DNA of 64,000 bases from Ulota crispa (taxonomy: Eukaryota; Streptophyta; Bryopsida; Orthotrichales; Orthotrichaceae). The stretch lies in assembly GCA_963920765.1 (NCBI GenBank), contig OY987248.1, positions 20,308,539 to 20,372,538 on the forward strand. The letters run 5' to 3'. This document shows positions 7,666-62,479 of this stretch, piece by piece (position 1 is the first letter of the stretch; every line of letters begins with the position of its first letter). The translations under genes were made by a program, and so were the position numbers. A model generated the notes under the pieces. The model was not told the DNA's origin and did no database searches. It saw only the letters and a list, made by a program, of their open reading frames with translations.

Positions 7666-8079
7666 TAAGGTAGGAGGCTCATAAACCGTCCATCTAAGGG
7701 CTCATCCACCTTTTTCATGATTTTCCATGGATGGGAGGATTTTCATTTCATTTTTCAATCAAAGAGAAATAGATGTGGAATGCAACACAAGTCATTTCAT
7801 GTTTTTTGAAGCATTTTAGAATTACTTATGAATTTTCAATGTGCAAGTGTCATAGGTCCCTATTTATGACCCTAGACCTTCCAAGAACCGTTCATTTGCA
7901 AGTTGTGAAGAGATTTAGAAAAGCAAGGAGAATGATTGGCTCTTGCAACTAAAAACACATATTCTTCCATGCATTCACTAACTTGTAAGAGGCCAACTTA
8001 AGAACCATCAGTGCACCATTTCACTACATGCTACTAGATGGTTCAAAATGTGCAAACGTTTTATGAGCACACTACCTTA
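7666..8079. mobile_element. AGGTAG-family element, longer subtype, copy 1
   Basis: Starts TAAGGTAGGAGGCTC and ends GAGCACACTACCTTA, edges at TA. The interior aligns in the same orientation with 51593-51994 over most of its length (shared blocks AGAGAAATAGATGT, TTTTTTGAAGCATT and TGGCTCTTGCAA). It abuts the TTAA element that begins at 8077, so the two share the bases CCTTAA. Confidence 0.65.
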
Positions 8080-8792
8080 ACCCCTAAGCCCCCTTTTGGG
8101 GGACAAATGGGATTTTGGGCATGTACTTATGGCTAAACTACTTTGCGTGATTTTTTGAAAATTTTATGGATGATGGGAAATTTAAAGATTTACATGGGCA
8201 TCTAATTTTTTCTTTGTTTTGACATTTATTGAAGAAGTTAAAAATGAATTTCTAGAAAACAAGCAAGATTGGGCAGCCCAAAAGCTTCTTTAAAAACTGC
8301 ATTTAAAACAAATAAAAATATGAAATAGGTTCTTTAGACTTATATATAGGTGGGGAGCTTTTAATCATTCAACTTTGATTCATGAGATGAAAGTTATGAG
8401 AAGTTTTTGTTTGCAGGTAGGTGTGGTTTCTCTCAAAACCACACCTACCTGCAAACAAAAACTTCTCATAACTTTCATCTCATGAATCAAAGTTGAATGA
8501 TTAAAAGCTCCCCACCTATATATAAGTCTAAAGAACCTATTTCATATTTTTATTTGTTTTAAATGCAGTTTTTAAAGAAGCTTTTGGGCTGCCCAATCTT
8601 GCTTGTTTTCTAGAAATTCATTTTTAACTTCTTCAATAAATGTCAAAACAAAGAAAAAATTAGATGCCACGTTGATATTTGAATTCCACACCTTCAATAA
8701 AAGTTTCAAAAAATCACAAAAGTAGATTAGCTGTAGGTACATGCCTGAAATCCATTTGTTCCCGAGGGGACAATTGGTCCTTTAGGGGTTAA
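8077..8792. mobile_element. TTAA-flanked foldback element, subfamily A (0.72 kb)
   Basis: TTAA at both edges. The outermost bases read CCCCTAAGCCCCC on the left and GGTCCTTTAGGGG on the right. The two arms are complementary almost to the centre near 8433, most nearly perfect from about 8210 to 8655, making a foldback with arms of about 350 bases. Arm sequence is shared with the right half of the asymmetric members at 25619-26561 and 34423-35351. Confidence 0.85.
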
Positions 8793-9699
8793 TCCAAGTT
8801 GTCCCATATTTTTTGGAGCTTTGTGGATATAGTTGTGAAATTTTGAAGTTGAAGTGCATAGGGCTTTAAAACCGTCCACCTCCTTAAATGTACTCCACTT
8901 GTACATTTCTGAAGCTTATAAAAAACAACATGTGCAAAGTGGGTACGTTTGAGAAAGTGGACAGTTTTAATGCCCGGATGATTTTAGAGCCTCCTAGAAA
9001 GGACTTGGCTCTTCACACTACATTCCAAGTCACATGTTCCAATTCATTACGCTTTACTTACATGGTGCCCCGTTTTGGAAGTTTTGACATCAAAGAGGAT
9101 GGGACTTCTCTCAATGTTTCGGCTAAACATTTCTCTAAATCAAACTTTCAACCCAAGTCCCATCAATATTTACGTACAACATATTCATGGCATGGCTTTT
9201 TTTAGTACTTGTTTTTGCCCTTAGTAAATTAATGAAGCTAAAAACTTGCATTGAGGTGGGACATAAAGAGCATATGTAGAAAGTAATAATGTGAACCACC
9301 CCCAATGTTCCTTCTCAAACTTCTTCAAGGTAGCTTTTATCATAGCAAAGCTTGTTGCCCTACAATCCACATCCAACAAAATGCACATGGTACTATATAG
9401 AGTTTTCAATTTTATGCAATATTTTCAAAAAAATAACACAGATTTTCTTTGAAAGAATATTTGGTTATATATTCTTACTTTTTCAGTGCGTGAAATTGCA
9501 TAACCATTCCATGATCATGCGATGATATTGTTCTTTTTGGATGAATGCGGGCTGACTTCGACAAAGAAATCTAAAAATATTCCATACATTGCAGATGAAA
9601 ATAGCTTTCTAACAGTAACAAGGATTGCTTTTAACAATGCCAAAACTATATAAGAATTTTAAAAAATTAATAATAGATGGAAAGATCATGTTCACAAGC
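8793..9699. other. Intergenic, nothing recognised
   Basis: No credible gene or element ends. A 105-codon ORF at 8888-9205 on the plus strand has no recognisable motif, and I do not call it a gene. Confidence 0.45.
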
Positions 9700-10420
9700 A
9701 ATTAGATTGCTTTACCTTGAAAAGTTACCTCGTGGCTCAATGCTTGGCCATGGAAGCACATGTGACTCTACACACTAAAATTTCACATGATTGATGACCT
9801 ACACAATGATAGTTTGTCTTTCGGCAACATCATTGTTGTTGCCAAGTCATTAGGGGGTTTTAAACATGAAATCTGGCCTACGAGTTTCTCACCTCCCAAG
9901 AATTCAGGTCACCAGTGAATTATTCTTGTTCACTCACTTGCCCAAAGTCTTAGACCCATGTGAGTTTGCATGAGTTTGCATTTAGGGTTTAGCTTTTGCA
10001 ACAACGACATTGCAAGAGCAGGACCATTACAAGCACAAGGAGCACAAGTATGAGGACCACGGCAAGAGTTGGAGCAGGATGGGTGGGTGACGACCTCCGT
10101 CCACATTCACAATTGCTCTCCAAACTATTGTTCATTAGAGCCACGAAGGTGGATTTCTAGAGTTCACTCCTAAGGTGAATCACATTAGGAGTGAACTTCA
10201 AAGGTGAGTCACCTCCCTGTTCACTAGTGAATCCACCGAGGTGAACAACAACGTGAGTCACCTTAAAAAGTTGATGTTTGAAACCCCCTATCATTGTTGT
10301 TAGAGTTTGTTTATTGCAAGGATCATTAATGAAAATCATTGTAATATCAATAGATATTATTATATTTAGTAAAAAGTCAAGAAATGAGTGTAGGGCAACA
10401 TAACTGCACTATTTAATGTA
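9700..10420. mobile_element. Degenerate CACCAAATAGTGC-family element carrying a nested insertion
   Basis: The right end (GCACTATTTAATGTA at 10406-10420) and blocks such as AAGTTACCTCGTGGCTCA and AAAAGTCAAGAAATGAGTGT match the copy at 39456-39744. The left end is worn and its edge is approximate. The element is interrupted at 9851-10290. Confidence 0.55.
9851..10290. mobile_element. Nested element with TAGGGGGTTTTAAACAT ends
   Basis: Left TAGGGGGTTTTAAACATG, right GATGTTTGAAACCCCCTA. TCAT flanks both sides (9847-9850, 10291-10294). The interior has complementary GTGAACTTC / GTGAGTCACC blocks around a GC-richer middle. Host sequence on both sides matches an uninterrupted relative at 39.5-39.7 kb, which supports an insertion. 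Confidence 0.6.
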
Positions 10421-10503
10421 CAACTCCAAGAATGATCTCGCAACTAATTTACAAACAAACCATCAAAAATAGAATCAAACTTTGCAAAACACTACAAACT
10501 CAG

Positions 10504-10803
10504 GGTATCTCCACCAGTGGCTTGGGCTCACTCAAAGTGGATGAAAGGTAGCCAAGCTCCTCTCAAAGCGCTCTCAAACTCTTATTTGACAAGTCTAGCA
10601 AGTCACTCTTCAAGCCACTATTCACCCTCAGTTTAGTGAGCTTTATCCTCTACTTCCCTAAATAAGTGATCAACTACTTATTTATGGGGTGTGTTGGAGT
10701 GTAAAGCCACCTTTTCAAAGAGCATGGGTGGAGATTGAGAGCCTTCAGGCCTAGCCAAACCAAATGGAAAACTTTGAGCAAATCTGGACCGGTGGAGATG
10801 TCC
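10504..10803. mobile_element. MITE with GGTATCTCCACC ends, copy 1
   Basis: Left GGTATCTCCACCAGTGGC, right complement ending GGACCGGTGGAGATGTCC. About 300 bases, and aligns along its full length with 23039-23349 (shared CTCAAAGTGGATGAAA, AACTACTTATTTATGGG and CCAAATGGAAAACTTTGAGC). No coding capacity. Confidence 0.7.
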
Positions 10804-10882
10804 TGATATACAGGACTACACTAAAATGAAATGATACCAGGAGGTGAATTCAAGGAATGCAAGATTAGTAAATTCAAGGCTC

Positions 10883-10888
10883 TTTATT
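10883..10888 (-). terminator. Candidate poly(A) signal of the glycosyltransferase gene
   Basis: On the minus strand this reads AATAAA, about 660 bases past the stop codon at 11551. It would give a long but plausible 3' UTR ending just before the MITE at 10504-10803. Transcript evidence is lacking. Confidence 0.35.
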
Positions 10889-11550
10889 AACATGTACAAA
10901 TTACGCAAGGGGAGAGGAACAGATTAGACCCCAAAAAAAAATTAAATGGAAAGAACCATGGTTTACAACAACACCAAAGGCACGTTGAGTCTCTTTCAAG
11001 AATTGAATGAGAGGATCCCACCATTGGCTGCTACAATAAATCTCAACCCTGATCCCTAAATTAGAATGAGATAAGTTTAAAACCTGCCGCCTCACAAGGT
11101 GCTATGACACATTACAGTCGAGACTCACTGGGTACATAGTGCTGCTAGAAAAACAATTAGCTTGTTGGCCAACTTTGTCTTACTTCACAGCAAACTACAA
11201 AAATAATAGAAAACCTTGGCATGTCCTACCAACCCCTCTAATGTTTTTCTTTTTTTCACTCACGGCGAGCACGTTGCTGCCCACCTCTGCGCTATTGTAC
11301 TCGGGCACAAAGAATCACTTTAAAAATAAAGTGCCAGCTGTCATTACTTGATTGACAAGTACCCTCGCTATGCAGACGTGGTAATAATAAACATAACAAC
11401 TCTCCAAGCTCATATTAACCTGATATGAATTGGGTCATTCAACGAGACTAGTATCAATAGGGTTGTTGAGACATATCGGTCTAGGAGTTTGGTGAAACCA
11501 TGCCAAGGCTCTCTCAGAAGGGACACGGGTTACTAGATAATTGGTTACTA

Positions 11551-17745: not shown

Positions 17746-17782
17746 GGGAGGGCGGGGTGCTGAGCTGGCAAGGGTGAAAGGA

Positions 17783-17917: not shown

Positions 17918-17943
17918 TTTGGGCGGGGTTGGGTTGGGCGGGG

Positions 17944-19184: not shown

Positions 19185-19419
19185 TTAACCCTTAAACGAC
19201 CATAGGGCATAGTACATATGCTGACATATAATTGTCATTTGCTACCAATTAGAAAATTTTAATTTGGGATCTCAAGTAGTTCGCTAGAACGGCATTGATC
19301 TATTCTCCAACTTCTATGTTGATCTCAAATGTAATAGAGGTGTGGATCCATTCCAAATACAAGAAAAATATCATGTATTGTATTGGTTGCAATGGGCCTT
19401 TTGGTTGTTTAAGGGTTAA
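19185..19419. mobile_element. TTAA-flanked element, short (235 bp)
   Basis: Left TTAACCCTTAAACGACCA, right TGGTTGTTTAAGGGTTAA: 18 bases almost perfectly complementary, TTAA at both edges. The inner flanking bases GGGCAT / GGGCC echo the other TTAA members. No coding capacity. Confidence 0.75.
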
Positions 19420-23713: not shown

Positions 23714-24442
23714 TTGACCTCTAAAGGACCAAGCACCCTTTTGGAGGACAAATGAGATTTCAGGCATGTACCTATGGCTAAATTACTTTGCATGATTTTT
23801 TGAAACTTTTATGGATGATGGGGAATTCAAATATTTATGTGGGCATCTAAATTTTTCTTCATTTTGATGTTTATTGAAGAAGTTAAAAATGAAAATTTGG
23901 AAAATGGGCAAGATCGGGCAATCAAAAAACTTCTTGAAAAGTTGCATTTGAAAAATAAACAAAATATGAAATAGGTTCTTTAGACTTATATATACATTGG
24001 GAGCTTTGAATCATTCAACTTTGATTGATGAGATGAAAGTTATGAGAAGTTTTGTTTGCAAGTAGGTATCATTTCGAGAGAAACCATACCTACTTGCAAA
24101 CAAAAACTTCTCATAACTTTCATCTCATCAATCAAAGTTGAATGATTCAAAGCTCCCAATGTATATATAAGTCTAAAGAACCTATTTCATATTTTGTTTA
24201 TTTTTCAAATGCAACTTTTCAAGAAGTTTTTTGATTGCCCGATCTTGCCCATTTTCCAAATTTTCATTTTTAACTTCTTCAATAAACATCAAAATGAAGA
24301 AAAATTTAGATGCCCACATAAATATTTGAATTCTCCATCATCCATAAAAGTTTCAAAAAATCACGCAAAGTAGTTTAGCCATATGTACATGCCTAAAATC
24401 CCATTTGTCCCCCAAAAGGGTGCTTGGTCCTTTAGGGATTAA
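23714..24442. mobile_element. TTAA-type foldback element, subfamily A (0.73 kb)
   Basis: Left edge TTGACCTCTAAAGGACCAAG, right edge CTTGGTCCTTTAGGGATTAA. The arms are nearly perfectly complementary from the ends to the centre near 24078. This is the cleanest foldback in the window; each arm is about 360 bases and matches the arms at 8077-8792 closely. The left border has drifted from TTAA to TTGA. Confidence 0.88.
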
Positions 24443-27984: not shown

Positions 27985-28063
27985 TTAACCCCTAAATGCC
28001 CATGGTGTCAAATTCCAAAATCAAAAACACCACATTTTGGTGTAGTGGGCATTTAGGGGTTAA
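27985..28063. mobile_element. Minimal TTAA-flanked element (79 bp)
   Basis: TTAACCCCTAAATGCCCA on the left and TGGGCATTTAGGGGTTAA-like bases on the right (GGGCATTTAGGGGTTAA) enclose only about 43 bases. The terminal repeats belong to subfamily B. This is the smallest bounded member in the window. Confidence 0.8.
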
Positions 28064-30976: not shown

Positions 30977-31102
30977 TTAACCCCTATAGGCCCAAGCCCT
31001 TTTTACTGTAAAAGTCACCAAAAACTGTCATTTTTAAGGGAATGAGTAGAAAGGTAGGATTATTATTTTTTGAAAATTCAATTGTAGAATCTTGCCCTAG
31101 AC

Positions 31103-31979
31103 TAAGAGCACCTCTATCGGTTGACTTCGGCCGCTCAATTAGCGAGTCGTTTTGGTAATGTTGACATTTTTTTACCCCCACCAGTCACACGCCCAAAAAA
31201 TCTTCCCATGCATGCTTGCCAAATTGGGGTCCGGGGATGGCGAGCTGCCGGGGTTGCAAATCTCAGGCTAATTTTAGATCGTGTGAAGACTGCGTTCAAG
31301 CAGAGGCCTACGTGGATGGGACAAGCTGTCTTGGGCCCACGACCATTGTGACCTGGCCAAGGTCACACGACCTACGTGGCACGAATAAAATCTCCTTTCC
31401 GTCCGGCCATACCGGATATTGCGGTCTAGATCCTCTATCGAGTCTGTCCCACTCCAAACCAGTGGGAATTGATACCACTACCCACCCAAAATTGTAGCTC
31501 CAAACCCTTGCACAAGTGCTTGGCGAGTCAGAGTTATTCTGGACTGGTGGAAGTACTCTAAGATAGGAGAACCCAAATGTAACACTAGCCGTTTATTGAC
31601 ATCTACAAACAAACTTAAATTTACAGGCTCCTGCTTGCAAACAAGACACATTGTTTAACAAAACTTGTCATAGTAATGGAGTATAGGGAACACAAATTGT
31701 GTAGGTGGTTGAGAAGCTACACATGTGACACAATCTTTTTGTTGTTGCTTTTTCATTTCAATACAAGCATTTCAATTGGGGTCTAGCGTCTACAATAGGT
31801 AGGTCTAGGGAGTTGCCTTCAACAATTCCTAATTTATTCATACAATCTTAGAAAATTCCAAAAACAACGTTTCTTGCATTTGTGCCTACTTCCTAACAAG
31901 CACATGCCATTATATCCTAAAAAGATATTCAAGATCACCACATATGAAGTAAGTGTTGATTCCAAGTTCTCCTACCTTA
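31103..31979. mobile_element. AGGTAGG-family element inside the TTAA element
   Basis: Right end GTTCTCCTACCTTA at 31966-31979. The complementary left end is AGATAGGAGAACC at 31561-31573. Upstream of it sits another element (31105-31558), so the outer edge is the TA at 31103. Edges at TA fit the family. Confidence 0.55.
31105..31558. mobile_element. GC-rich element with AGAGCACCTC / GTACTCT ends
   Basis: Left AGAGCACCTCTATCGG, right complement of AGAGTACTTCCACCAG. About 450 bases, richer in GC than its host, with a few overlapping ORFs under 95 codons. It is the innermost (youngest) piece of the 31-32 kb stack. Confidence 0.5.
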
Positions 31980-32771
31980 TGAGAGGTACTTTTAGAAAAA
32001 CAATCAGCTCATTCCAAATGAATGGGAGTGAGATATTGACATCAAAAGTGGAAAATAATGTTTCTTTCCTACCTGCTCAAAAATTTAAGAAGCCTTTGAC
32101 CACTCCTAAAGTAAAAAATTGTTCTCCACAAAGTTGAGGCTTATTTTCTCCATGTAGAAGACCAAGTTGAGTGTGTGTGGGAGGATTTTCAAATGAATTG
32201 GAGGTGTACAACATATTTCAAAAAAAAATTGAATGCTAGAGGTCATGAAATTTCCAAATACACAAGGTAGAATTGGAGGATTTATGTAAAATTTAGAAAT
32301 TTGAATTACACAAATCCAAACAGTGAAGATTAAGGAATCCATGCCCACTTCAACTTGGGAAAGAAAAAAAAAACTAAAAAACAAATACACAAACCACTCA
32401 AAAGTTCAAGTACCAAATTTTACAAGGGTATAAAGGAATGGAGGGTTGGGACTTGGGAGTCCTCCAAGACGGGCTCCTTCCACTCCACTCCCTTTTGCAC
32501 AAGTGTCCACACCTTGTGGCTGTAAGAGCTGACTCTTTTAGTCAACACCCACTTACAAAGAAGAGGCTCTACCCAAACTACCCCTCCTCCCCTTGTTTTG
32601 ATAAATTCTTGCATAACTTCTTCATCATATGTCAAAATGAAGAAAATTTGAATAGCTGCATAGGTCTTTGAATTCCCCAACTTTAATAAACAATTCAAAA
32701 AATCATGCAAACTATAGGTACATGCCCAAAACCCCCCTTGGCCCCAATGGGCCACTTGGGCCTTTAGGGGT

Positions 32772-32884
32772 TAAGGTAGGTATACCCATTTCTAATCATT
32801 GAACTTTATACCATTCATATGTACATACATTGTACACATGAACGGTATTAGGTTCAGTGATCAAGAATGGGTATACCTACCTTA
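32772..32884. mobile_element. AGGTAGG-family mini foldback (113 bp)
   Basis: Left TAAGGTAGGTATACCCATT, right AATGGGTATACCTACCTTA, with almost the whole length complementary around a centre near 32828. It starts within the TTAA that ends the preceding element. Confidence 0.85.
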
Positions 32885-33264: not shown

Positions 33265-34297
33265 TTAACCCCTGAAAGCCCACTTGTCCCTTCTAGGGAC
33301 AAAATGAATTTTGGGCAGCTCACTACAAGTGGATGTTTTGTCTTTTTTCTTTAAAAGTTTCACGCATGATGTGCCCAAGAAGTAGCTTCAAGGTCCAACA
33401 ACTTTCATAACTTTTGACTACATGGTTCAAAAGTTATTGCATGATATTTTGTTGTTTTTGAACTCTAGGCAGCTTGGGCAGCTCAAAAAATTTCTTTAAA
33501 GTTTACATTTTTTTGAATTTTGTTTGGAATAGATTCTTTAGACTTATATATATGTGGGAAACTTTGACTCACTTGATTTCAATTAATGAGATGAAAGTTA
33601 CTAGAAGTTTTAGTTTGCCAATAGGTATGGTTTAGAGAGACTCTATACCTACCCATAAACTAAAACTTCTCATAACTTTCATTTCAATAATCAAATTTGA
33701 ATGATTCAAAGCTCCTCACATACATACAAGTCTAAAGATCCTATTCCAAAAAAACATCATTAGGAAAAATTTTAGTCTTCAAGAAGGCCTTAAAAATTCT
33801 GTTAATTTTGTTCCCAATGTGGGGAACCAAAAAAAAAAAAAAAAAAAAATCTTATAAAAAATTTAGAAATTTTTGTGATTTTACTTTGGTTTTTTAATTT
33901 TTTGATTTTTTTTTAAATTAAAAAAATGACATGGCCCCAATGCTGCCATGTCAGCCTGCAAAATTTCCAAGGTTAAGGGGTATGGGCCTAAGGTTCCCAT
34001 GCTTGGGAACTCAGGGCCTTATTGAGGGCCCATATTTTTCCTAACGCCAAAAAATGTAAATTTTAAAGACTTTTTTTGAGTTGCCCAAGTTGCTTGGAGT
34101 TTAAAAAAATAACATGTCACAATAGGTTTTGAACCATGTAGTCAAAAGCTATGAAAATTGTTGGACCTTAAAGCTACTCCTTGGGCACATCATGTGCGAA
34201 ATTTTCAAAGAAAAAAGATGAAACATCCACTTGTAGTGAGCTGCCCAAAATTGCCATGTTGCCAGAAAGAAACATTGCTTGGGCCTTTAGGGGTTGA
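33265..34297. mobile_element. TTAA-flanked foldback, subfamily A variant, interrupted (1.03 kb)
   Basis: Left TTAACCCCTGAAAGCCCA, right GGGCCTTTAGGGGTTGA. Arms meet near 33638 (TAGGTATGGTTTAGAGAG / complement). The left arm is about 374 bases and the right about 659, the excess being an insertion at about 33760-34043. Both arms carry GTGGATGTTT / complement and the GCAGCTTGGGCAGC-like block. Confidence 0.75.
33760..34043. mobile_element. Insertion in the right arm of the foldback, TTAGGAAAAAT ends
   Basis: Left TTAGGAAAAATTTTAG, right ATATTTTTCCTAA. It contains an 18-base A run and the GCCATGTCAGCCTG block. It is absent from the left arm, so its limits follow from comparing the two arms; exact edges are approximate. 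Confidence 0.45.
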
Positions 34298-34422
34298 TCC
34301 ATTTTATGAGACTTTTTGGAAATTTGAAAATAACACAAAACTTCAACAAATTTTTTGCATGAAAGAGTATTATAAAATGTTTACTGTTAAATGTTCTTTC
34401 ATACAAAACAGGTGAAGGATAT

Positions 34423-35351
34423 TAACCCCTAAGGGACCAAGCCATTTTTTCTGCAAAAAACACATAAAACTACCACTTTTGGGGAAGCTAGTACAATGGG
34501 GAAAAATAAAAAATTTACAAGAATTCAACCATAAGATCTTATAGTAGACTACAAGAGGTACATGTGATAAAAAAATCAGCTCAATCTACACAAAAATGAG
34601 TGAGATATTTACATTTGAATTGCAAAAAAAAAGTTGTTTTTGCTGCTACCCAGATATTTCAAAAGGCGTTCACCACTCTTATATCAAAAAAATTACTCTA
34701 CACAAAGTTGAGGTTTATTTTTCCCATGTAGGAGACCAAGTTAGGTATGTGTGGGAGAATTTTCAAATCAATTGGAACTATACAACACCAGGGAAAAAAT
34801 AGTAAGTAAAAAGAAGTAGAAAATGAGTCAAAACACTAAATTGTTGAGAATTTAATTATAAAAATGAAAAATGCAAATCCCAACGGTTGTAGTGTTGTGA
34901 TAAACAATCTAAATCCTTTGGTTTTGTTTTTATTTCCAAAATAATGAAAATTGAGTAAAATAAAGGACTTCAAAGTATATTTTAGAGTAGAGAATCTAGA
35001 ACTGCCCGTAAACAAAAACTCCTCATAACTTTCATCTCATCTATCAAAATTGAATGATTCAAAGCTCCCCACATCTACATAAGTCTAAAGAACCTATTTC
35101 AGGTTTTTATTTGAAATAAATGAAATTTTTTTAAAAGTTTTTGGCTGCCCGGGGAGCAGCATTTTCTAGGTTTTCATGCATAACAACTTCAATAATTTTG
35201 GGAATGAAGAAAAAACTACATTCCCATGTACATTTATGAATTCCTCACCTTCAATAAAAGTTTCAGAAAATCACACAAAGTAATTTAACCATAGGTACAT
35301 GCCCGAAATCACAAATGTCAGCTGAACTGACAATGATCCTTTAGGGGTTAA
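34423..35351. mobile_element. TTAA-flanked asymmetric element, subfamily A (0.93 kb)
   Basis: Left TTAACCCCTAAGGGACCAAG, right GATCCTTTAGGGGTTAA. It aligns end to end with 25619-26561, including the central block AGTCAAAACACTAAATTGTT and AAATGCAAATCCCAACGG. No ORF beyond about 70 codons. Confidence 0.85.
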
Positions 35352-38228: not shown

Positions 38229-38777
38229 TTAACCCCTAAAGGACCGAGGGTGTATTTTGAGAAAAAATCTCAGGACCTGGTGCATTGCCCAAAATTGAAA
38301 ATAAAACTTTTTTTTCTCAAATTCAACCATGCAAAAGTGTGTAAAACAAATAAATTAATGTGTGCAAAAAAATTCAGCCCATTCGACCGCGCTGACTGTA
38401 AGATTATAACATTTGAAGTGAGAAAAGCAGTTTTCTTTCATTCCTGCAAAACAAGGTTAGCACACTTTGAGTCTTCCTAGAGTAAAGTTTTTGCTCTACA
38501 CAAAAATGAGCTTTTTGACCATTCACAAGTATATGATGTTAGGTTCACTCATGAAAACTTTTAGATGTAGATAGAGAATCTAGCTTATTCTAAATCATCT
38601 TGCAATGCAAGGAGGTTTAGTGAATTGGCAATACACTAGTCATTCTTTCTGCAATGAGGAAGTCTTTTATTAGAAATCTAAAAACTAAAAATTTAAAAAC
38701 AAACTTTTGGAATATGTGAAAAAAAGTTTCAAGAGTTTTGGATTTATAGATTGAAAGATAATAGGGCCTAAAGTTAG

Positions 38778-38840
<63 letters not shown>

Positions 38841-39215
38841 TTTTCTTGAAACTGCCTAAACATGGTTAACAAAGTTTGACTCCCTTCTAAATGTGATGTG
38901 AGAGCTTAGATTATTTTTTTACAATTGTACACCATGTTTTTTTAGTTACATACTTGCCAAATTTCAAAAGTTGATAAGAGCTTTAGCATAAGGTTCTCCA
39001 AAAATGCCAAATTGCCCAAGTTGCCCAATTTCTTTTGGGCAACATAACATTTGAACCAAACATCCGATTGGGAAAAAATTACATTTCCACTTAGGGGATA
39101 CATATTTGCACCTTGTGTAATAATTTTGAGAATATCCAATAAAATTTGACTCCATATGACCCTACCCGAGTTCTCAAGCGGTTGTTGAACAACCACTTGG
39201 TCTTTTAGGGGTTGA
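38229..39215. mobile_element. TTAA-flanked element (0.99 kb) sharing its right border with the next
   Basis: Left TTAACCCCTAAAGGACCGAG, right CTTGGTCTTTTAGGGGTTGA. Left-hand blocks (AAATCTCAGG..., ACATTTGAAGTGAGAAAAGC) are loosely like the asymmetric subfamily. It contains the (TTA)n microsatellite. Its right border TTGA is also the left border of the next element. Confidence 0.7.
38779..38840. repeat. (TTA)n microsatellite
   Basis: About 20 uninterrupted TTA/ATT units inside the TTAA element at 38229-39215. Likely length-variable. Confidence 0.95.
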
Positions 39216-40137
39216 CCCATTAATGCCCAAGGCACCAAAGTTTGGTGTGGCAATATTTTGAAGTTCAATAAACCTAACTAATTTTCTATTTTTAGTAGTT
39301 TAAACTTTTGATTTATTATTTGTGTATTCCAATTTTAGCATCATAAATTGATTTTGAAAATGTTTGATTATAATTCTTCTATTGAAAATTTTGCGCAAAG
39401 GTCTTGACTTTCTCTAGCGTTGAGAGCTCTTGGAAATGAGCCTCAAATACACTACACCAAATAGTGTATTTAGGTTGCCTAACCATGGAAAATTACCTCG
39501 TAACTCATGGCTCGGCCACTTGGAGGCGCATGAAACTATTTAGATACAAGGATTTCTCATGATTTACCACATGGACTTTGCTATTTATTGTCTTGGAGTT
39601 GTGTTGTTGTTGCCAAGGCCTTTTAAATTTGCTTAATACAATAATTATTGATGAAAATTATTGTAGCAGCAGTAAGTATTTAAATAGTGTAAAATGTCAA
39701 GAAATTAGTGTGGAGCAACCTAAATGCACTATTTGGTGTAGATCTTGGAGAAAAAATTACACTAGAAATTCATTTGAAAATATTATAGAAGAGATTTTAA
39801 AAATGTATAAAGTGATTGCAGTTATGTATGTTATTTTCTTTAACTTTGTATTTTATTGGTGATCATTTTGTTAAATCCAACATGTGAAAAGAGAATTCAA
39901 AAACATCAAGTCATTTTTGTGGTTTTAATACCCTCATGATCAAACATTATAATCTTTCAATCCATAAGTGATATTGTTGTATTTTCTTTTCCTATGTGAT
40001 CTCTAACATATCTAATTTGAATATGTACAATTGCAATTAAAATAATTTGGTACAAGTTATTAAAATGTTGGCTTTTTGTTTAGTTTAGAGCAAGATCCTA
40101 TAAGCTCAAAAAAGACCTCAAGCATTTAGGGGGTTAA
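39212..40137. mobile_element. TTAA-flanked element, subfamily B, with nested MITE (0.93 kb)
   Basis: Left TTGACCCATTAATGCCCAAG, right AGCATTTAGGGGGTTAA. It aligns with 47242-47897 and, inverted, with 48261-48917 (shared GAGAGCTCTTGGAAATGAGC, CTCAAATACACTA, ATGTGATCTCTAACATATCT-like). The extra length relative to the 656-bp copies is the MITE at 39456-39744. Confidence 0.8.
39456..39744. mobile_element. CACCAAATAGTG-family MITE nested in a TTAA element
   Basis: Left TACACCAAATAGTGTATTTA, right TGCACTATTTGGTGTA. The empty site in the relative at 47.5 kb reads ACACTAGAGCTTGG, showing a clean insertion with TA duplicated. Confidence 0.85.
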
Positions 40138-47128: not shown

Positions 47129-48105
47129 GGGGAATTTTTATGGATACCCCTGAAGTTTTTCATATTTATGTAGATATCTTTGGTTTTTCAAAAATTTCAC
47201 AAACATCTTTGGATCATAGTTTTCAGGGGCTTGCAGTTAAGTTAACTCCTAAATGCCCAAGCGACTAGATTTGGGTCGCAAGGAAACTTTGAAGATGAAT
47301 AAAACTTTATCAAATCATTATTTTTAGTATTTTTTTTTTGCATTATGAGTTTGTTTTAAAGTCTACATTCAAAATCAAAAATATGATTTTGAAAATAAAA
47401 GTTGATGATTTTTCTACTTGAGATTTTGTACAAGGGTGTCCACTCCAATCTTGAGTTTTTTTAGTGTTGGAAGATCTTGAAAATGAGCCTCAAATACACT
47501 AGAGCTTGGAGAAAAATCCACATTAGAAATCCATTTAAAAATAATGTAGGAGTAGATTTTCAAAACCGTAAATTGATTTGAGTTAGACGTGTAATGACCT
47601 TAAACCTCATATTTTTATGGTGACCAACTTTTTGGATTTGACATGTGAAACAATGATTGGAAGACTTTAAGTCACTTTTGCAGTTTTAACACCCTCAAGT
47701 TCAAACATTATAATCTTTCAAACTACAAGTGATATTGTTGTGTTTTCTTTTTCCATGTAATCTCTAACATGTTTAGCTTAAATTTGTATGGTTACAATTG
47801 AAAAAAACTTGATGGAATTTGTGAAGAGGTTGATTGATTGTACAATTTCATGGAAAGTCCAAGAAGCTCAGATAGGGCTTGAGCATTTAGGGGTTAAGCA
47901 GGCTACTTCCTTCATGACTAGTGTTAAAGCAATGTGTGCAATAAACCTGAAAAGAAACAGCTTGCCCACAAGGGAGAAAAAATTGGCATGCACAATAGAA
48001 TAAATGCTTGAAATTTATGATCCAAGGGAATTTGTGCAATTTCTGAAAAACCAAGGGTATCTGTACAAATAAGGCAAACTTTAGGGGTATCCATAAAATC
48101 TTCCC
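47129..48105. mobile_element. GGATACCCC-family MITE split by a TTAA element
   Basis: Left end GGAATTTTTATGGATACCCC, right end GGGGTATCCATAAAATCTTC. With 47242-47897 removed, the two halves join to about 320 bases that align with 29015-29330. Confidence 0.8.
47242..47897. mobile_element. TTAA-flanked element, subfamily B, nested (656 bp)
   Basis: Left TTAACTCCTAAATGCCCAAG, right GAGCATTTAGGGGTTAA. Inserted into the GGATACCCC-family MITE; the flanks rejoin over a single TTAA. The interior aligns with 39212-40137 and, inverted, with 48261-48917. Confidence 0.85.
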
Positions 48106-48260: not shown

Positions 48261-48917
48261 TTAACCCTTCACCGCCCATGGACGGTCCCCAGTATCTCAG
48301 AATCTGCTGTTAGGTGAACAGAATGGGAACACTTTTGATAAGTTGCATTATTATAACAAAAATTGTAACCGTACAAATTCAAACTAGATATGTTAGAAAT
48401 CACATAGGAAAAGTAAACACAACAATATCATTTATGAATTGAAAGATTATAAGATTTGATCATGTGGGTATTAAAACTGTGAAAGTGATTTGAAGTCTTT
48501 CAATCCTCTTTTCACATCTCAAATTTAAAAACAAGGATATCAAAAAAAAATATGAGTATGTAAAGTACAACATGTGTAACCCTAATCAATTTACGGCTTC
48601 TTAAAATCTACTCTACAATTTTTTAAATTAAGTTTCTAATGTGATTGTTTCTCCAATTTCTAGTGCACTTGAGGCTCATTCCAAGAGCTCTCAACACTAG
48701 AAAGTGAAGATTTGCAATGGACACCCTTGCACAATATCTTGAATAGACAAATCATAATCATTCATTTTCAAAATTGGATTTTTGATACCATAACAAAACT
48801 TCAATAAAAATCATATAAAAAAATAACCACTAAAATTAATCTTCAAGAAAAGTTAAAAAATTCCAAATCAAAATGTAGGATGGATAGTATTGGTCCCCTT
48901 GGGCGGTGAGGGGTTAA
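48261..48917. mobile_element. TTAA-flanked element, subfamily B, inverted copy (657 bp)
   Basis: Left TTAACCCTTCACCGCCCA, right GGGCGGTGAGGGGTTAA. The interior is the reverse complement of 47242-47897 (GAGGCTCATTCCAAGAGCTC, GACACCCTTGCACAA). The terminal bases CACCGCCC differ from the ATGCCC of its relatives although the interior is close, so the ends changed in both arms together. Confidence 0.83.
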
Positions 48918-50104: not shown

Positions 50105-50871
50105 TTAACCCCTAAATTCTTGAGTGTCCACTCAAGGGACAAATGAGATTTTGGGCAAGTACCTATGACTAAACTACTTTGTGTGATTTTTTGAAACTTT
50201 TATGGAAGATGGGGAATTTGAAGATCTGTGTGCACACCTTTTTTTTTTTTTTTTCATTTTGATAATTTTTGAAGAAGTAAAAAGTGAATTTCTAATTTTT
50301 TTGGAGATGGGGCAGTCCGGGCAGCGCAGTTTTTTTAATTTTTTAATTTTTATTTTTTTTATTTTTTTTAATTTACATTTTTTTGACACAACAATCTGAA
50401 ATTGGTTCTTTGAGTTTACATATACATGGGAAGCTTTGAATCACTCGTTTCCAGTAAATGAACTGAAAGTTATGAGGACTTTTAGTTAATTGGTAGATAT
50501 GGAGCCATGTCTACCATTTAACTAAAAGTCCTCATAACTTTCAGTTCATTTACTAGAAACAAGTGATTCAAAGCTTCCCATGTATATGTAAACTCAAAGA
50601 ACCAATTTCAGATTTTTGTTCCAAAAAAATGTAAATTAAAAAAAATAAATTGCGTTGCCCAGATTGCCCCATCTCCAAAAAAATTCAGAAATTCATTTTT
50701 TACTTCTTCAAAAAACGTCAGAATGAAAAAAAAATTAGATGTGCACATGGATCTTTGAATTCCCCATCTTCCATAAAAGTTTCAAAAAATCACACAAAGT
50801 AGTTTAGTCATAGGTACCTGCCCGAAATCTCATTTGTCCCTTGAGGGGACACTCAGGAATTTAGGGGTTAA
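50105..50871. mobile_element. TTAA-flanked foldback, subfamily A variant (0.77 kb)
   Basis: Left TTAACCCCTAAATTCTTGAG, right CTCAGGAATTTAGGGGTTAA. Arms stay complementary to the centre near 50507 (TAGATATGGAGCCATGTCTA). The outer parts of the arms match the foldbacks at 8077 and 23714. The inner parts are diverged, with long T/A runs. Confidence 0.87.
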
Positions 50872-53273: not shown

Positions 53274-54190
53274 TTAACCCCTAAAGGACCAGGCCCCCTT
53301 TTTTAGAAACATAGCAATTTTGGACAGGTACCTATGATTGGAGCTTTTCATATTATAGTCTGAAATTTTAACAGAATGTGGGGACAAGGTTTATCTTTCA
53401 TATGCACTAAATTTTATGAATTTGGAATTATGAGTAAAAAGTTATGGCCTAATATGTTGCTTTTTATGTTTGAGGGGCAGCTTGGGCAGATTTTTTAAAA
53501 TCACTTTTTTCAAAAACTAAAATTATAAATTGGTTTAAGAGATTCATGTGAATGTAGCTTTCAATCATTTTGTTTTGATCAACAAGATGAAAGTTATGAG
53601 GATTTTTTGTTTGCGGGTAGTTATGGATTCTCTACTCTAAAATAAACTTTGAAGTCCTTTACTTTACTCAATTTTCAACATTTTGGAAAAAAATCAAAAC
53701 CAAAGGATGTCTATTGTTTATTGCAACATTATGACCATTGGGATTAGGATTTTTCATTTTCATAATTAAATTCTTAACAATTTAGTGTTTTGAATCATTC
53801 TCTACTTCTTTTTACTTACTATTTATTTTCCATATGTTATACAACTTTGAATGATTTGAAACTTTTTTGACATGTACTTTATTTAGGTGGAACAAGGAAT
53901 TTAGAGAAGCACCACCCACATGGCCATTTTTCCTTAGGAATTTCACCTTTTGAAGAGTAGTTGCTCGATTTTTCAGAAGACGTTTTTGAATATTCAAACC
54001 ATTCTAACTTCCAATCCATGTGGTGAAAAACTCTGATTTTTTTTCCACACCTTCTAAAACTATTCTTCTACAGGATCCTACGGTCACATATGCATAAAAA
54101 TGTTTTTGTTTTCAAATTTGGTTGATGCTCTAAAAATGGCAGTTTTGAAGAGTTTTTGGTGAAAACTTTGCTTGGTCCTTTAGGGGTTAA
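53274..54190. mobile_element. TTAA-flanked asymmetric element, subfamily A, inverted (0.92 kb)
   Basis: Left TTAACCCCTAAAGGACCAGG, right TTGGTCCTTTAGGGGTTAA. The middle is the reverse complement of the central block of 25619-26561 and 34423-35351 (AAACTTTGAAGTCCTTTACT, AACAATTTAGTGTTTTGA, TCTCTACTTCTTTTTACTTA). Confidence 0.84.
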
Positions 54191-55974: not shown

Positions 55975-56365
55975 GACTCTATCATACTACTAAAGTCACA
56001 GTGACCTCTATAATACCACATCCCAACTTATGTGATATTGCATCTACAATCACTGGTATATTATCACATAAATACAATTGGAAAACTTAGTAATTTTTTT
56101 ACTTAATTTGTATCCTATTTAACATGTGAAAATCCTAATAAAATTCTAATGGTGAATGTGTAGGGCAACGAGTGCCAACTGCTAATCATGTTACTAAAAT
56201 CACCTTGACCTCTACAATATTACAACTGCACCTCTATAATATCACACATTCACTTTATTTGAAATTTTATTGAAAATTTTACTTTGTATTTTATCTAACA
56301 TATGAAAATCATAACAAAATTTTGATGATGAATGCATAGCGTACCAAGCCCCAATTGCTAGTCAA
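55975..56365. repeat. Diverged tandem duplication of about 200 bases
   Basis: Ordered blocks CATACTACTAAAGTCAC / CATGTTACTAAAATCACC, GTGACCTCTATAATA / TTGACCTCTACAATA, TATCCTATTTAACATGTGAA / TATTTTATCTAACATATGAA and ATGGTGAATGTGTAGGGCAA / ATGATGAATGCATAGCGTAC recur about 200 bases apart. Confidence 0.6.
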
Positions 56366-56726
56366 CAACCAAATTGACAAGAATATTAACAAATAAATTT
56401 GTCAGGTTCTTGTTTTTATTATTTTGTTTCTTAGCTAGGTTTCTTTTGTTCTTTTTTGTTTTTTTGTCTTAAATTTCCAGATGTTACTATCCTGAAGTAA
56501 TGGTCTCTTTTACACCAGCAGTAAAAAGTTTGAAGTGGGTGTTGTGTGCCATGAGAAAGTGCAAGAAACACAAGCACGGGCATTGCTTTTGTCGCCGATG
56601 TGGGGTCCCCCCAACTCATCCCCTTTTAAAAATGTGTAAATGATTTTATACTCAAAGTTGGATTCACCAGCTATAGTTGGACATGCCACATCCATGGCAA
56701 ATAAGTGTGGACAAAGCCAATTGCAT

Positions 56727-56885
56727 CATAAAAAAAAGGAAGAAGAAAGGAAAAAGAAAGAATAGTAAAGACAAAATAGAAAAAAGAAGGAACGAGAAGT
56801 AAAGGAAAACGTAAAGAAAAAAAAAAGCAAAGAAAGGAAAGAAGAAAATAATATAAGAAAGAAAGAAAAGTAAATAAAAAATAGT
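56727..56885. repeat. Polypurine tract
   Basis: About 160 bases almost wholly A and G on the plus strand (GGAAGAAGAAAGGAAAAAGA and similar), the source of Phe/Leu-rich spurious ORFs on the minus strand. Confidence 0.85.
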
Positions 56886-57448
56886 ACATTTCATAATTCC
56901 TTTCATTGTACTCTACTTTGTCTTGTTTTTTTCTAATACCTACTAGAAAATTAGTGTTTTTTTCTTCTAATACCTAACATATTGTAGGGGGTTAAGGAAC
57001 AAGGGTTACTTTGGATTTCCAAAAATGTGAAGATGTATTTGCGTTGACAAAATAAAATAAAATAAAGACATTATTGTTCTTTGAAAAAAAGTTTAGGGGA
57101 TGCCCCTTCCATTATATTTATTTGGTTAAACCTCCTATTGTACCCACCAAAATTTATCAAGAGAGTTTTAAAAACCAAGTGCTGAAGATCAATTTTCAAG
57201 TTGATTATGGATCAAATCTTAGTAACTTTTACAAGAATTTTATTTTTTAAAACTCATGATATTAGTTTCTAATTTAAGGGAATCTTGAAAGGTTTATATA
57301 TAATTTTTGATCTTCCATCTTTGAAATCATTTTTGAATGGCCATTTTTTGAACCTTTTTCTGTTCTGTTTTTGAGGTGAATTTACTTGCACTTTAAACTA
57401 TAGAACAGGTGTAGGGATTTTGTTGGACAATAAGTATTGCGCAAATGT

Positions 57449-57830
57449 TTAACCCATAAACGCTAAGGCAGACGTTTTTTTGTCCAACAGAGAACAAAAA
57501 AACACTTTGCAGAATGGAAGAAGGTTGTTTTTCATCAATTTAAAAAAATAAAAATAATCATAAACACATGGTCCATAATGGAAGGCAAAAAATCACCTCA
57601 CTAAATACGTTCATATTTTTAGGTAACCCAATTTGCTAGAAGATTAAAAAATGCAATGTTAGGTCCCATGTTGTTCTTTGTGTAATTTTCATGAGGTCAA
57701 CATGCATTGATGAGTATTGCAATTTTTAGAAACAATGTTATAATGGGTGGGCACTTGCCATATCACTATAGAGCACTATAATCACTATAAAGGGCTTGGT
57801 CACAATGACTTGTCAAATGTTTGGGGTTAA
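57449..57830. mobile_element. Possible worn TTAA-flanked element
   Basis: Left TTAACCCATAAACGC, right GTTTGGGGTTAA. TTAA stands at both edges and the first bases fit the family, but complementarity stops after about 9 bases. Confidence 0.35.
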
Positions 57831-58618
57831 AACCAAACACACAAATCCAATAACGCACATGCCGGTGACCAAATTTCATTTTTGTATGCACAAAACATGT
57901 TTATCTTTGTACATTATAGTTAATTAAAATGTTTGGTTCTTAAAGGATGAATTCCTTTAGAATGTGTTACAAATCTTGAAGAATAAGCCCAATCTCAAAA
58001 GTAAAATGACAAAATAGGTGGGTCTTGAAGCTTAATCTGTGCAAATCATGTTTCTATTAGCAACAAGCTTCTTGATCTTCAAATTATTTCCTTCTTGAAT
58101 GAGGTGAAAACATCTAAGTTTTTGTGATTCATTATGGACATTTTTCTAATTTTCAAATGCAAGATTTCACATGTGTGAGCTTTTCATTTAGAGAACCTTG
58201 CTAGGATCATAATAATTTGTTTTGCTTGGTATACTTAGACTATGATTAGTAGGAGCAAGGGGGGTTTTTTTTTTTACAAAGGCCTCAATACTAAACAAGC
58301 TATTTCAATTAGTGCAAGATTTCAAGTAGTGCAAGACCCCTTCACATTAATTTGGATAAATTTTGTTCTAATCAATATTTTGGTGTGGGTGTGTGGCATG
58401 CATTTTGCTTTTATCTTACAAGTAGGGTTTTGATCACAACTTTTTGCTGCCCATTAAGTAGCAACTTAGTGGTGGAGTGTATGCAATGTAACACCCTTCT
58501 TATGCTCTCTAGTTGAGCTACATGCTTGCAACATCTCCTAGAAGTTCCCTTGAATCACAAAGTTTGAGATCGCATTTAAACATTGTAGTCCAATATATGC
58601 TGAGAACCTAAATTAATA

Positions 58619-59037
58619 CTCCCTCTATCCCTCTAAAAATGTCCAAAAAGCTTCCTTACAAAGGATTAATTGTGTTAATCTTTGTGCTAGTGACACATGC
58701 TTTCTAGAATCAATATACCATCTACCATTTGTATGCAAAATCTCCAATTTGTATGTTGCCTTTTAGGCACCCAAATTCCAAGTAAAACATACCATATTTG
58801 TGCATGTTGCAAGCTTCTCATTATTGATGATTTAAAGATTAGTAGCAGCAATAGTACCTCATATGGGAAAGGCCAAGCTTGCTAGGAGAGGAATGCTCCC
58901 TAGTTGCTTAACTTGCCCCCATGAGATTATTGAATATGACAAATGCTTTCTCAGTATTTGAAACTAACAAAAATAAGCTTTTTAATGGTACAAGAAATGT
59001 GTTTGATTTGGACGTTTTTAGAGGGACAAACGGAGCA
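58619..59037. mobile_element. Stowaway-like MITE
   Basis: Left CTCCCTCTATCCCTCTAAAA, right end TTTTTAGAGGGACAAACGGAG; the first 26 bases of each end agree at most positions. CTCCCT termini after TA are the Stowaway (Tc1/mariner) signature. The right flank has CA instead of TA. Confidence 0.75.
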
Positions 59038-59618
59038 TGAACTACTTTATTGGTATGCCTCATAAATTCACCTTTTTCTTAAATTATGTCAAGTTTGCAT
59101 TATAGGTGCAGGGCACAACGATTGAGATAATTAATGTAGTTAAGAAAAATAATATTAATTAATTAATTAAAATAAACTTAGACATGTTTTTATATATATT
59201 GGATTTATTAAAAGTGTTACTTGATCAAAACTTTCATATTGAAATCTTTTGTGTAAAATTTACTTTTATAAACACTTGTTCATGATGATTATCTATAATC
59301 ACATGTTTAAGCAAAAAAAATGGTGTCATTTTTAGTACTACCATTTTTCACACTTGTGTCAAACAAAGAATACCATAGGTTACTAAGAGCTTTGGCAGTT
59401 TATTTGCTCAATTCCTAAAGGACCAAGAAGCCCACTTTGGGCTGTTTGCAAATTTGAGCAAGCACTTTTTGTGTAAATACTTGAGATACAATTGTGAAAA
59501 AGGGCATATGTGCTCATATTGAGTTGCATTCTTCTAAAAAAATGTGAAATTTAGTAATTTTTGAGTGAGATGTGGTACCATATGTGATTAGATGTCAATT
59601 TGGGCATCTTTAAAAAAA

Positions 59619-59931
59619 GGGAAAATTTCATGGATACCCCTAAAGTTTGCAATGATTTCATGGATACCCTTGCTTTTTCAGAAATTTCACAAATACCCTT
59701 GGACCAAAATTTTCAAGCATTTTTTTTTGTTGTGCATGCCATTTCCCTTCTCCCTTTGTGCGGACATCACTTCTTACTTGTTATGAGTGTGCACAAAGGA
59801 AGAAGGGAAGTGGCATGCACAACAAAAAAACACTTGAAGATTTTGGTCCAAGGGTATTTGTGAAATTTCTGAAAAAGCAAGGGTATCCATGAAATCATTG
59901 CAAACTTTAGGGGTATCCATGAAATTTTCCC
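59619..59931. mobile_element. GGATACCCC-family MITE, foldback with 9-bp target duplication
   Basis: Left GGGAAAATTTCATGGATACC, right GGTATCCATGAAATTTTCCC. The arms are near-perfect to a centre around 59775. Flanked by TTAAAAAAA on both sides (59610-59618, 59932-59940), consistent with a 9-bp duplication as made by Mutator-type transposases, although the low-complexity flank weakens this. Confidence 0.85.
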
Positions 59932-60808
59932 TTAAAAAAAAGTAGAAACAAAGTGACCAAGGAAAGAAATTGTCTACAAGTTGTTCAATGCATTGCCAAC
60001 AATGGCTCAATCAATAAGCAAAATTTGAAATCAACTCTCTTGACTATGTACTGGTTTCCATTCTACTTTTTATTTTTAAGAAAAAATAATTTGGCAAGTA
60101 CTCCACATGATATTCTAGGTTTTGTTTGCACATATTTTGTAACTAAGATTTATTGCTATAAGAATCTCTTCCATGAAATTTCCTTAGTGGAATGATAATT
60201 TCATTGAAACAATTCTTGCTTCCAACTATGTTTTAAGCATTAGGTGATCACAAATTTGTGAAGCATTTCATGCTCTAAAAGAAACTCAAATTGCACAAGA
60301 AATTCATAAGATAGAAGATATCATTTTGGATGACTAAAAAGTTTTGACACCTTGGACAAGCTTCAAAATTTTTTTGACCCTACTTTGAATGTCATGATCT
60401 AATGTATGACTTTAGAAAGTATAGAATTGTAAAAAGGTGTACATAAGTAAGTGACAAAATAGATTTTATGATCAAATAATTAAAATAGTTTCAAGAATTT
60501 GATCTGATCCTGTAGTTATTTATTGAGAGGTCAATTTCAAGCCATTTGAGCATGTCAAGGAATTTTAAGGGTCAGTATTTATTTACTTTGATGCTACATT
60601 GGCTAATAAAAAGGTTTCATTCAATTATAATTTGACATATAGCACCAATACAAAATAAACTAGCTATTTTTATTACGATAACACAAATCTAGATTCAATT
60701 AGCCTTGCCTTGCACCTATTTTTATCCCCTCGAGCTTGCATTATCTTTCCATTTTGGAAGACTTATAAAACACTATTATAAAATAGAACACTCTAGAGCA
60801 TTTTGGAG
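59932..60808. other. Intergenic, nothing recognised
   Basis: No bounded element and no credible gene. Confidence 0.4.
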
Positions 60809-61039
60809 TTAACCCGTGAAGGGCCCTTGGGCTTTAGAGCTATGGTATCAAATATGGTCGCAACCAATATTCAGAAGTTTGAATTAGCTGTAAATTAAGT
60901 GTTATAATCATACATATTAAAAGGTTGTATGATGGTGGGTGCATAAAAAATTTGAAAAGCCCTCATAGGAGCTCAAATACATTTGTATATACAGTCATAC
61001 ATATGGCCGCAAAGTGCGTTTGGGCCCTTCAGGGGTTAA
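60809..61039. mobile_element. TTAA-flanked element, subfamily C (231 bp)
   Basis: Left TTAACCCGTGAAGGGCCC, right GGGCCCTTCAGGGGTTAA: 18-base terminal repeats with one mismatch. Same-orientation sister at 62261-62479. Confidence 0.9.
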
Positions 61040-61046
61040 TGTGTGC

Positions 61047-61158
61047 AAATAAGTGTTATAGATTCCAAAGTTTAGATTACATACGTATTCTTGTGTCCAT
61101 TACAAATAAGTGTTATAAATTCCAAAGTTTGGATTACATACGTATTGTTGTGTCTACC
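61047..61158. repeat. Tandem duplication, 56-base period
   Basis: AAATAAGTGTTATA(G/A)ATTCC, AAAGTTT(A/G)GATTACATACG and TATT(C/G)TTGTGTC occur twice, 56 bases apart, just outside the TTAA element. Confidence 0.85.
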
Positions 61159-61163
61159 AATAC

Positions 61164-61485
61164 TAAGGTAGGAGCACCCATAAGCGTCAGTGTCCTCATA
61201 ACCGTCACTTCAGAAATCTTGGAAAATCTGTGGAAGTGAATAGGTTTAATGACAAGAATGTACAAAATGTGAACATGAATTCTTAAAAGTGGTTATGGGT
61301 GCAATGGCAGTTTGCTCTTTCAAAATTCATAACTTATTCTCACAGTATCCAAATAATACATTCAAAACTGCAAACTCTTTTTTTTTTTTTCTGTTCCTAA
61401 TAGGATCTTATAATTTGCTAGTTGTTTATTAATAGTCATCATGTTCAAAACCCTTAGTTTGACGTTTATGGGTGCTCCTACCTTA
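61164..61485. mobile_element. AGGTAGG-family MITE, CCCATAAGCG subtype, copy 2
   Basis: Left TAAGGTAGGAGCACCCATAA, right TTATGGGTGCTCCTACCTTA: the terminal 20 bases are exact complements. TA at both edges. Same subtype as 21178-21494. Confidence 0.88.
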
Positions 61486-62260
61486 TCACAATTCTTTTAA
61501 TATGAAATTTGAAACTCAAAATTCAAATTTTTTACTTCAAACTTTAATTGCAATCAAAATATTAATAGTTATGAAGTGAAGTTTGTCCAAAAGGACTTTA
61601 CAGGAGATGATCTCATTGTATCAATACTTTTGAATGTTTTTGTTCTAGTAATCTACAAGCTTGTTTCCCTAAGGACACTTTTAAACAAAAAAGTAAACTA
61701 AATGATTTCTTCACATACCTCCATTTTAATAATTTATGAAAGTGCAAATTATAGCAAGTTACTCTCGGTACTCCCGTAAATCTTTAATTTGACAAAAAGT
61801 ACCGGTTCGTGCCCTGCAAAATACCACGTCATCACAAAAAGCCAGACTTATTTCATGAGCATTTGTCCTTTCAACCCCTTCTAATCCAAAATAAATGTAA
61901 ATTGTAAATTTTTTCATGACCACAATACAAAAATGATTGTAGACTCAGAAACTTGACCCTCACGCATAATAATAACAAATTTGTACCACTTGCTTTGGAT
62001 TGTCAGCGAGGGTACAAAGTTAGTGTCAAAGGACTTTTCTAAAATTTAAAATGACTGTACTAACTTCAAAGTAGAAACAGTCTAGTAATATTTCAACTTC
62101 GCTTGAATGAGAAGTTACAAGCATTTAGGAGGTTTCAAACGTAGGAGAAAATTAAGTTTTTATAAGGGGTTTTTGCAAGAGGAAATGGTGGTCTTCTGAT
62201 GCGGAATAAAAAAGTTTTGCACACCCAGTTGCAAACACTGCAAGCATGGACTCTCAAGCT
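61486..62260. other. Intergenic, nothing recognised
   Basis: No bounded element and no credible gene. Confidence 0.4.
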
Positions 62261-62479
62261 TAACCCCTGAAGGGCCCTTGGGCTCTGGAGCTATGGTACC
62301 AAATACCGTCACAACCAATATTCAAAAGTTTGAATCAGCTAGAAATTAAGTGCTATAACCATACATATTGAAGGATTATACAATGGTGGGTGCATAAAAA
62401 ATTTTGGAAAACCCTCAAAGTAGCTCAAATACATCTGTACATACGGCCGCAAAGGGATTTCGTGACGTTCGGGGGTTAA
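62261..62479. mobile_element. TTAA-flanked element, subfamily C (219 bp)
   Basis: Left TTAACCCCTGAAGGGCCC, right GACGTTCGGGGGTTAA. The interior matches 60809-61039 (AGCTATGGTA, TTCA(A/G)AAGTTTGAAT, GGTGGGTGCATAAAAAATTT). The right terminal repeat has decayed while the left is intact. Confidence 0.83.

Follow-up and report, generated by a model that had tools for sequence, protein, structure and literature searches.

Short transposable elements bordered by TTAA are spread over a 64,000-nucleotide stretch of the genome of the moss Ulota crispa (contig OY987248.1 of assembly GCA_963920765.1, positions 20,308,539 to 20,372,538 of the forward strand), hereafter called the window. These elements are almost certainly miniature inverted-repeat transposable elements (MITEs), the non-autonomous members of several lineages of the piggyBac superfamily, and would have been mobilised by a transposase originating from relatives of 5-6 kb. 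An earlier reading based on the letters of the window alone (the sequence-only reading) had proposed piggyBac-type MITEs in a plant, and this proposal is supported because TTAA is duplicated upon insertion in the best-preserved case, matches to the piggyBac transposase are abundant in the same genome, ends of the same type surround five of the six best-scoring transposase domains, and two MITEs from other parts of the assembly are internal-deletion relatives of a transposase-bearing element.

A scan allowing <=3 mismatches, the inspection of flanks, a strict caller pairing the ends and the comparison with elements located elsewhere in the genome delimited 16 bounded elements in the window. The sequence-only reading had counted about 18 elements with CCCCTAAA(G/T)G ends, a figure that comes close, with one decayed element that cannot be bounded in addition to the 16. 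It had also placed TTAA, or the variants TTGA and TTTAA, at nearly all borders, and exact TTAA indeed occurs at 28 of the 32 borders and TTGA at the remaining 4; twelve elements carry TTAA on both sides, and the other four show TTGA (plus strand) at one border, which is common to both neighbours in the case of the abutting pair 38229-39215 and 39212-40137. The existence of the groups A (GGACCAAG), B (TGCCCAAG) and C (GGGCCC) that had been distinguished is confirmed, and a fourth group of about 240 bp, starting with TTAACCCTTAAACG and exemplified in the window by 19185-19419, has to be added.

The whole assembly (274.8 Mb in 157 contigs, the window being part of contig 7) was searched for related sequences, and the L-numbered loci mentioned below are stretches taken from elsewhere in this assembly. 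The end TTAACCCCTAAA(G/T)G occurs exactly 21,778 times genome-wide, compared to 2 occurrences of the reversed control pattern, and in 259 kb of DNA the strict pairing of ends yielded 38 elements, compared to a single one over 20 shuffled replicates and none when the sequence was reversed; eight short loci (L001-L008) were excluded from this count, from the count of ends made without assuming TTAA and from the estimate of coverage. Because the real figures differ so strongly from those of the controls, the window elements are not a product of chance. In a blind sample of 13 loci placed at round coordinates, which amount to 130 kb out of 275 Mb, called elements cover 8.0% of the DNA and similarity to the element library extends to 11.3%. 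A first look returned 9,400 candidates for a group A element and 2,239 for a B element, and 40 candidates were scored from each of the sets of 2,239, 3,002 and 9,400, unscored candidates not being counted as confirmed copies. The best 40 of the 9,400 group A candidates are full length or nearly so, with 89-91% identity apart from the query itself; among the best 40 of the 2,239 B candidates, the 39 besides the query reach 88-93%, and three further matches are weaker. These similarities point to a large past amplification of the group A and B MITEs, and no sign of very recent bursts was seen among the scored copies of the two groups.

The target of insertion was deduced from ends sampled without any assumption about their flanks. 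In the sampled DNA, 53 of the 58 occurrences of CCCCTAAA(G/T)G have TTAA immediately in front, and the sequence appears random from position -5 outwards; genome-wide, TTAA precedes 7,801 of the 9,280 copies of the terminal 16-mer CCCCTAAA(G/T)GNCCAAG. The best-preserved case of a target duplication is L022:5389-5823, an element inserted in a high-copy repeat; its joined flanks gave 78 rows matching this repeat, 73 of which run across the junction (of the other 5, two are the filled site itself and three do not cross the junction). Among the 15 of these 73 empty paralogous sites that were examined, 14 have TTAA at the junction and one has TTGA, and the filled site displays TTAA on each side; the duplication is thus exactly TTAA in this element, as the sequence-only reading had expected. 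A separate search yielded 7 spanning alignments, with TTAA in 2 and gapped or misaligned junctions in the rest (TGTA twice, AAAA twice, CAAA). Four diverged empty sites of L012:2822-3756 read TTAA, TTAA, ATAA and TTCA, and the window element 19185-19419 itself provides one empty site, with a single TTAA, for this insertion. The 4-bp TTAA duplication typical of the piggyBac superfamily is accordingly found in the best case, with a mixed picture in the more diverged ones, and the 3-bp TAA/TTA duplication of PIF/Harbinger is not what L022:5389-5823 shows.

Abutting neighbours with a single TTAA in common form 102 exact junctions genome-wide, and two near-full-length B-type matches on contig 5 overlap by exactly 4 bp (16268744-16268747). 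A preference for insertion beside existing elements was considered and found no support. The 102 junctions account for 204 of the 21,778 exact ends, i.e., 0.9%, and the blind sample contains 6.7 TTAA per kb, a density equivalent to some 1.8 million sites, 1.2% of which are taken by exact ends; since 0.9% of the ends abut and 1.2% of the TTAA sites carry ends, no enrichment is visible. Looser abutments number 7 among 231 loosely called ends in 328 kb, four of them in L011-L014, which were chosen for their density of elements, one in the blindly placed L028 and two in the window, of which that at 60809 is doubtful. As a separate observation, two element ends at positions 4250 and 5997 of L015, located 1,747 bp apart, have identical flanks and identical first interior bases, suggesting a tandem duplication that would include an element end.

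The piggyBac transposase domain PF13843 (DDE_Tnp_1_7) gives at least 120 matches genome-wide, from 116 scored candidates out of 528, all over the curated cut-off, and scans of some single frames confirmed the domain; the best match spans positions 2-349 of 349 (E 1.3e-73). No match occurs in 14 control genomes, which are all prokaryotic and therefore uninformative with respect to plants. Among the solved structures, one frame matches two proteins and no others, the piggyBac transposase of Trichoplusia ni (6x67, E 3.6e-20) and piggyBat (9c0f, E 1.4e-16). Compared to the L030 frame, those of five other loci show 32-44% identity. With the roles of the catalytic residues taken from the available part of PMC7351741, all three aspartates of the DDD triad are kept in L030 and L035, in motifs recognized by eye as (T/C)DE, DNFF and GVD, and are kept across two pieces in L032 and L034. 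At this single locus, L034, the terminal stretch of one piece is rich in cysteine and resembles the piggyBac C-terminal domain, as judged by eye. Two loci contain stop-free piggyBac domains: L029:2348-3658 (contig 4), with N instead of D at the third catalytic position and one recognisable end, and L030:2311-3408 (contig 2), with all three D and no ends within 6 kb; both are candidates for copies adopted by the host, or for simple relics. Upstream of the transposase domain, a motif resembling RYLxxRQIAKLLGW was noticed by eye in four loci (L032:2490-2864, L035:2059-3243, L030:4812-5546 and L029:425-775), the corresponding regions of which have no match in Pfam. The transposase alignment was also run against viral contigs, giving 12 pattern matches, none of which is a relative.

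Wide flanks were taken for five of the six best-scoring transposase loci (L032-L036). The domain lies between two TTAA-bordered ends of the MITE type in L032 (1763-6789), L034 (1867-7612), L035 (1796-6897) and L036 (982-6991), and L033 (1517-7537) combines a perfect right end with a weaker left end. A transposase enclosed by ends of the same type, as the sequence-only reading had advised looking for, thus occurs in elements of 5.0-6.0 kb. Altogether, the eight loci considered comprise four with two clear ends, one with a weak left end, one with a single end and two with none in the DNA taken. The MITEs were compared to the transposase-bearing elements of L032-L035, L036 being excluded. The 935-bp MITE L028:6196-7130 resembles L034 over 593 bp from one end (84%) and 131 bp from the other (73%), and L011:5486-6393 over 553 bp (75%) and 88 bp (73%), respectively; as judged from these alignments, both B-type MITEs are internal-deletion relatives of the L034 element, having descended by internal deletion from a relative of it. 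In most rows, the group A MITEs match the right end of L033 at 76-85% over about 57-64 bp; in others the match is limited to 29-36 bp, and it extends to 597 bp at 72% in L014:8135-9037 (903 bp). In the window element 38229-39215 it covers positions 142-841 of L033, leaving the terminal 141 bases of the latter unmatched.

On these grounds, the following sequence of events may be proposed. A piggyBac transposase, encoded by relatives of 5-6 kb located in other parts of the genome, would bind the CCC(C/T)-type ends and excise the element with a TTAA overhang, followed by its insertion at another TTAA, which would thereby become duplicated. The transposase would presumably act in trans on the ends of the MITEs, excision might be seamless, leaving sites indistinguishable from those never filled, group C and the 240-bp group may have used the same machinery, and some copies could have been active recently.

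Several observations weigh against this scheme. The left end of L033 reads TTAACCCCTAAA, with 4 mismatches in a motif of 17 bases, a score reached by one of 50 shuffles; several ends occur in each of L032-L036, and the pair flanking the domain with agreeing next bases was the one chosen. Of three loci selected for their stop-free domains, L029 has a right end only and L030 and L031 have none within 6-7 kb, and stops interrupt 110 of the 120 PF13843 rows. The main group A is tied to a transposase-encoding element (L033) by terminal stretches only, and group C and the 240-bp group, for which no transposase-encoding relative was found, are linked by their ends and TTAA alone. The best scored copies of the two MITE groups are 88-93% alike and thus show no sign of recent activity. 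Finally, the empty copies read CAGG and TTGG for L011:3442-4370, TTTT for L015:912-1839, and TTAT or TTGT in eight alignments for the window element 47242-47897. The host copies of these three elements are just 69-86% alike, and the deviating junctions could result from later mutation or from sites that turned into TTAA before the insertion.

These weak points leave room for other explanations. Kolobok and Sola3 elements also produce TTAA duplications, and the window elements might belong to one of these superfamilies, with the piggyBac genes as unrelated bystanders, the more so as the group A and C MITEs lack a full-length derivation from an element bearing a piggyBac gene. Against such a coincidence, all five piggyBac loci with wide flanks sit between TTAA-bordered ends of the MITE type (one left end being weak) and the two B-type MITEs are internal-deletion relatives of a piggyBac-bearing element, so that this alternative appears very improbable. 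Neither duplications other than TTAA nor a partner from another superfamily, the two outcomes named beforehand as refuting, were seen, the genome-wide search for transposases having been confined to piggyBac and not extended to PIF/Harbinger, mariner, Kolobok or Sola.

MITEs of the PIF/Harbinger (TAA) or Tc1/mariner (TA) kinds are the usual ones in plants (see also PMC10004981), and TTAA includes both TA and TAA; ends merely resembling TTAA would be sufficient in that case. Such an origin is scarcely credible in view of the filled site of L022:5389-5823 with TTAA on both sides, the single TTAA at the junction of 14 of its 15 empty sites, and the randomness of position -5. It could also be argued that TTAA belongs to the inverted repeat and is not duplicated at all, since a constant palindromic TTAA is indistinguishable from an inverted repeat in filled sites alone, and three diverged cases do have empty copies other than TTAA. 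The empty sites of L022:5389-5823, however, hold TTAA exactly at the junction, two of the four empty sites of L012:2822-3756 do so as well (the others being ATAA and TTCA), and abutting elements have one TTAA in common, which makes an absence of duplication extremely unlikely. Mobilisation by a piggyBac transposase remains by far the preferred explanation.

The coordinates of the window elements are listed in Table 1. An O-fucosyltransferase domain is also present in the window.

Table 1. Transposable elements delimited in the window (positions in the 64,000-nucleotide stretch).
Positions	Element	Borders	Relationships
8077..8792	Group A piggyBac-type MITE	TTAA both	Ends read, and matched by 4 and 12 elements elsewhere in the genome
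19185..19419	235-bp MITE, fourth group	TTAA both	Empty site, with one TTAA, for L012:2822-3756
23714..24442	Group A MITE	Left TTGA, right TTAA	
25619..26561	Group A MITE	TTAA both	Initial 58 bp 85% similar to the L033 right end (transposase-encoding)
27985..28063	Minimal element of 79 bp, little more than its two group B ends	TTAA both	No match among elements from elsewhere in the genome (end comparison)
30977..32774	1,798-bp group A-type element	TTAA both	
33265..34297	Group A-type element	Left TTAA, right TTGA	Left end alone matched elsewhere
34422..35351	Group A MITE	TTAA both	First 58 bp 85% like the right end of L033
38229..39215	L033-like element	Left TTAA, right TTGA	76-78% like L033 positions 142-841; ends unmatched by elements elsewhere in the genome (end comparison)
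39212..40137	Element abutting 38229..39215	Left TTGA (4 bp in common), right TTAA	
47242..47897	Group B MITE inside another repeat	TTAA both	
48261..48917	MITE, ends TTAACCC(T/C)TCACCGCC	TTAA both	Last 28 bp 89% like an end of L032 (transposase-encoding)
50105..50871	Group A-type MITE	TTAA both	
53274..54190	Group A MITE	TTAA both	
59408..~60575	Probable decayed element, right end uncertain		
60809..61039	Group C (GGGCCC) MITE	TTAA both	
62260..62479	Group C MITE	TTAA both	

Some observations on organellar sequences were made in the same assembly. Contig 157 (112.5 kb), a plastid contig that may be incomplete, carries rbcL (PF00016), tRNA-Arg(CCG) and then two further frames, with a GC content of 25-33%; these frames are presumably accD and ycf4, in that order, and the succession rbcL, tRNA-Arg(CCG), accD, ycf4 is bryophyte-like. 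The rpoA C-terminal domain has no match on this possibly incomplete contig and its sole match on contig 2 (37 Mb), a non-plastid rpoA being a moss trait. Gene order and rpoA location would by themselves point to a bryophyte, probably a moss. The NifH/ChlL family has no match on contig 157 and one strong match at contig 7:4302007-4302537, inside an open frame of 3,579 amino acids. On the 122-kb contig 97 (117800-119100, locus L038), the 3' half of rbcL and an unrelated reading frame (393 amino acids in the stretch examined) form an in-frame fusion; this is perhaps a transfer of organelle DNA or a misassembly.

The piggyBac superfamily is known mainly from animals and fungi. Like the piggyBac element of T. 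ni, the ends of which start with CCC, the elements of U. crispa have CCC-type ends and encode a homologous transposase, the alignment to the T. ni protein (6x67/6x68) spanning the first two catalytic aspartates. The TTAA target and its duplication are likewise common to both (PMC7351741, available part). The moss elements differ by their length of 5.0-6.0 kb instead of about 2.5 kb (2,472 bp, as given in the accessible part of PMC10813416), by transposase N-terminal parts devoid of any Pfam match and by their great excess in the form of MITEs. The piggyBacs of small animal genomes, as described in that same portion of PMC10813416, also display TTAA in most cases, end motifs of the CCCTT/CCCTC type and occasional TTAA variants, with the difference that their hosts are animals.

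Since PiggyBac appears as a superfamily in one plant review (PMC10794571) and figures among the seven MITE superfamilies of angiosperms (PMC10004981), both according to the portions accessible, piggyBac-like plant MITEs as such are not new, which qualifies the earlier description of the repeats as apparently undescribed. Searches of an open-access library, with subscription papers and repeat databases outside their scope, brought up no bryophyte in which piggyBac elements are described as abundant, and in the accessible text of a moss genome paper (PMC10619864) 'piggybac' occurs only within 'piggybacking'. The repeat tables of Stipa (1 copy, 75 bp; PMC8319324) and Ceratopteris (1,230 copies, 0.00%; PMC6890710), in the parts available, contain almost no PiggyBac, in contrast to the approximately 8-11% of the blind 130-kb sample found here. 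The superfamily is known; its scale and its host are unusual.

A wider proposition, plausible and a little short of an even chance, is that piggyBac could be a leading cut-and-paste superfamily in this plant, with several old lineages that persist (as suggested by the 32-44% identity of the transposase frames), MITEs occupying about one tenth of the genome, transposases perhaps endowed with a specific N-terminal domain, and a small number of stop-free copies possibly adopted by the host. A land-plant genome made up of piggyBac elements to about one tenth would suggest that this superfamily can become a main component there. It would offer many insertions for comparing TTAA targeting, the birth of MITEs by internal deletion and host control with the animal systems, and it makes testable whether bryophyte piggyBac elements were kept from an early ancestor or gained later.

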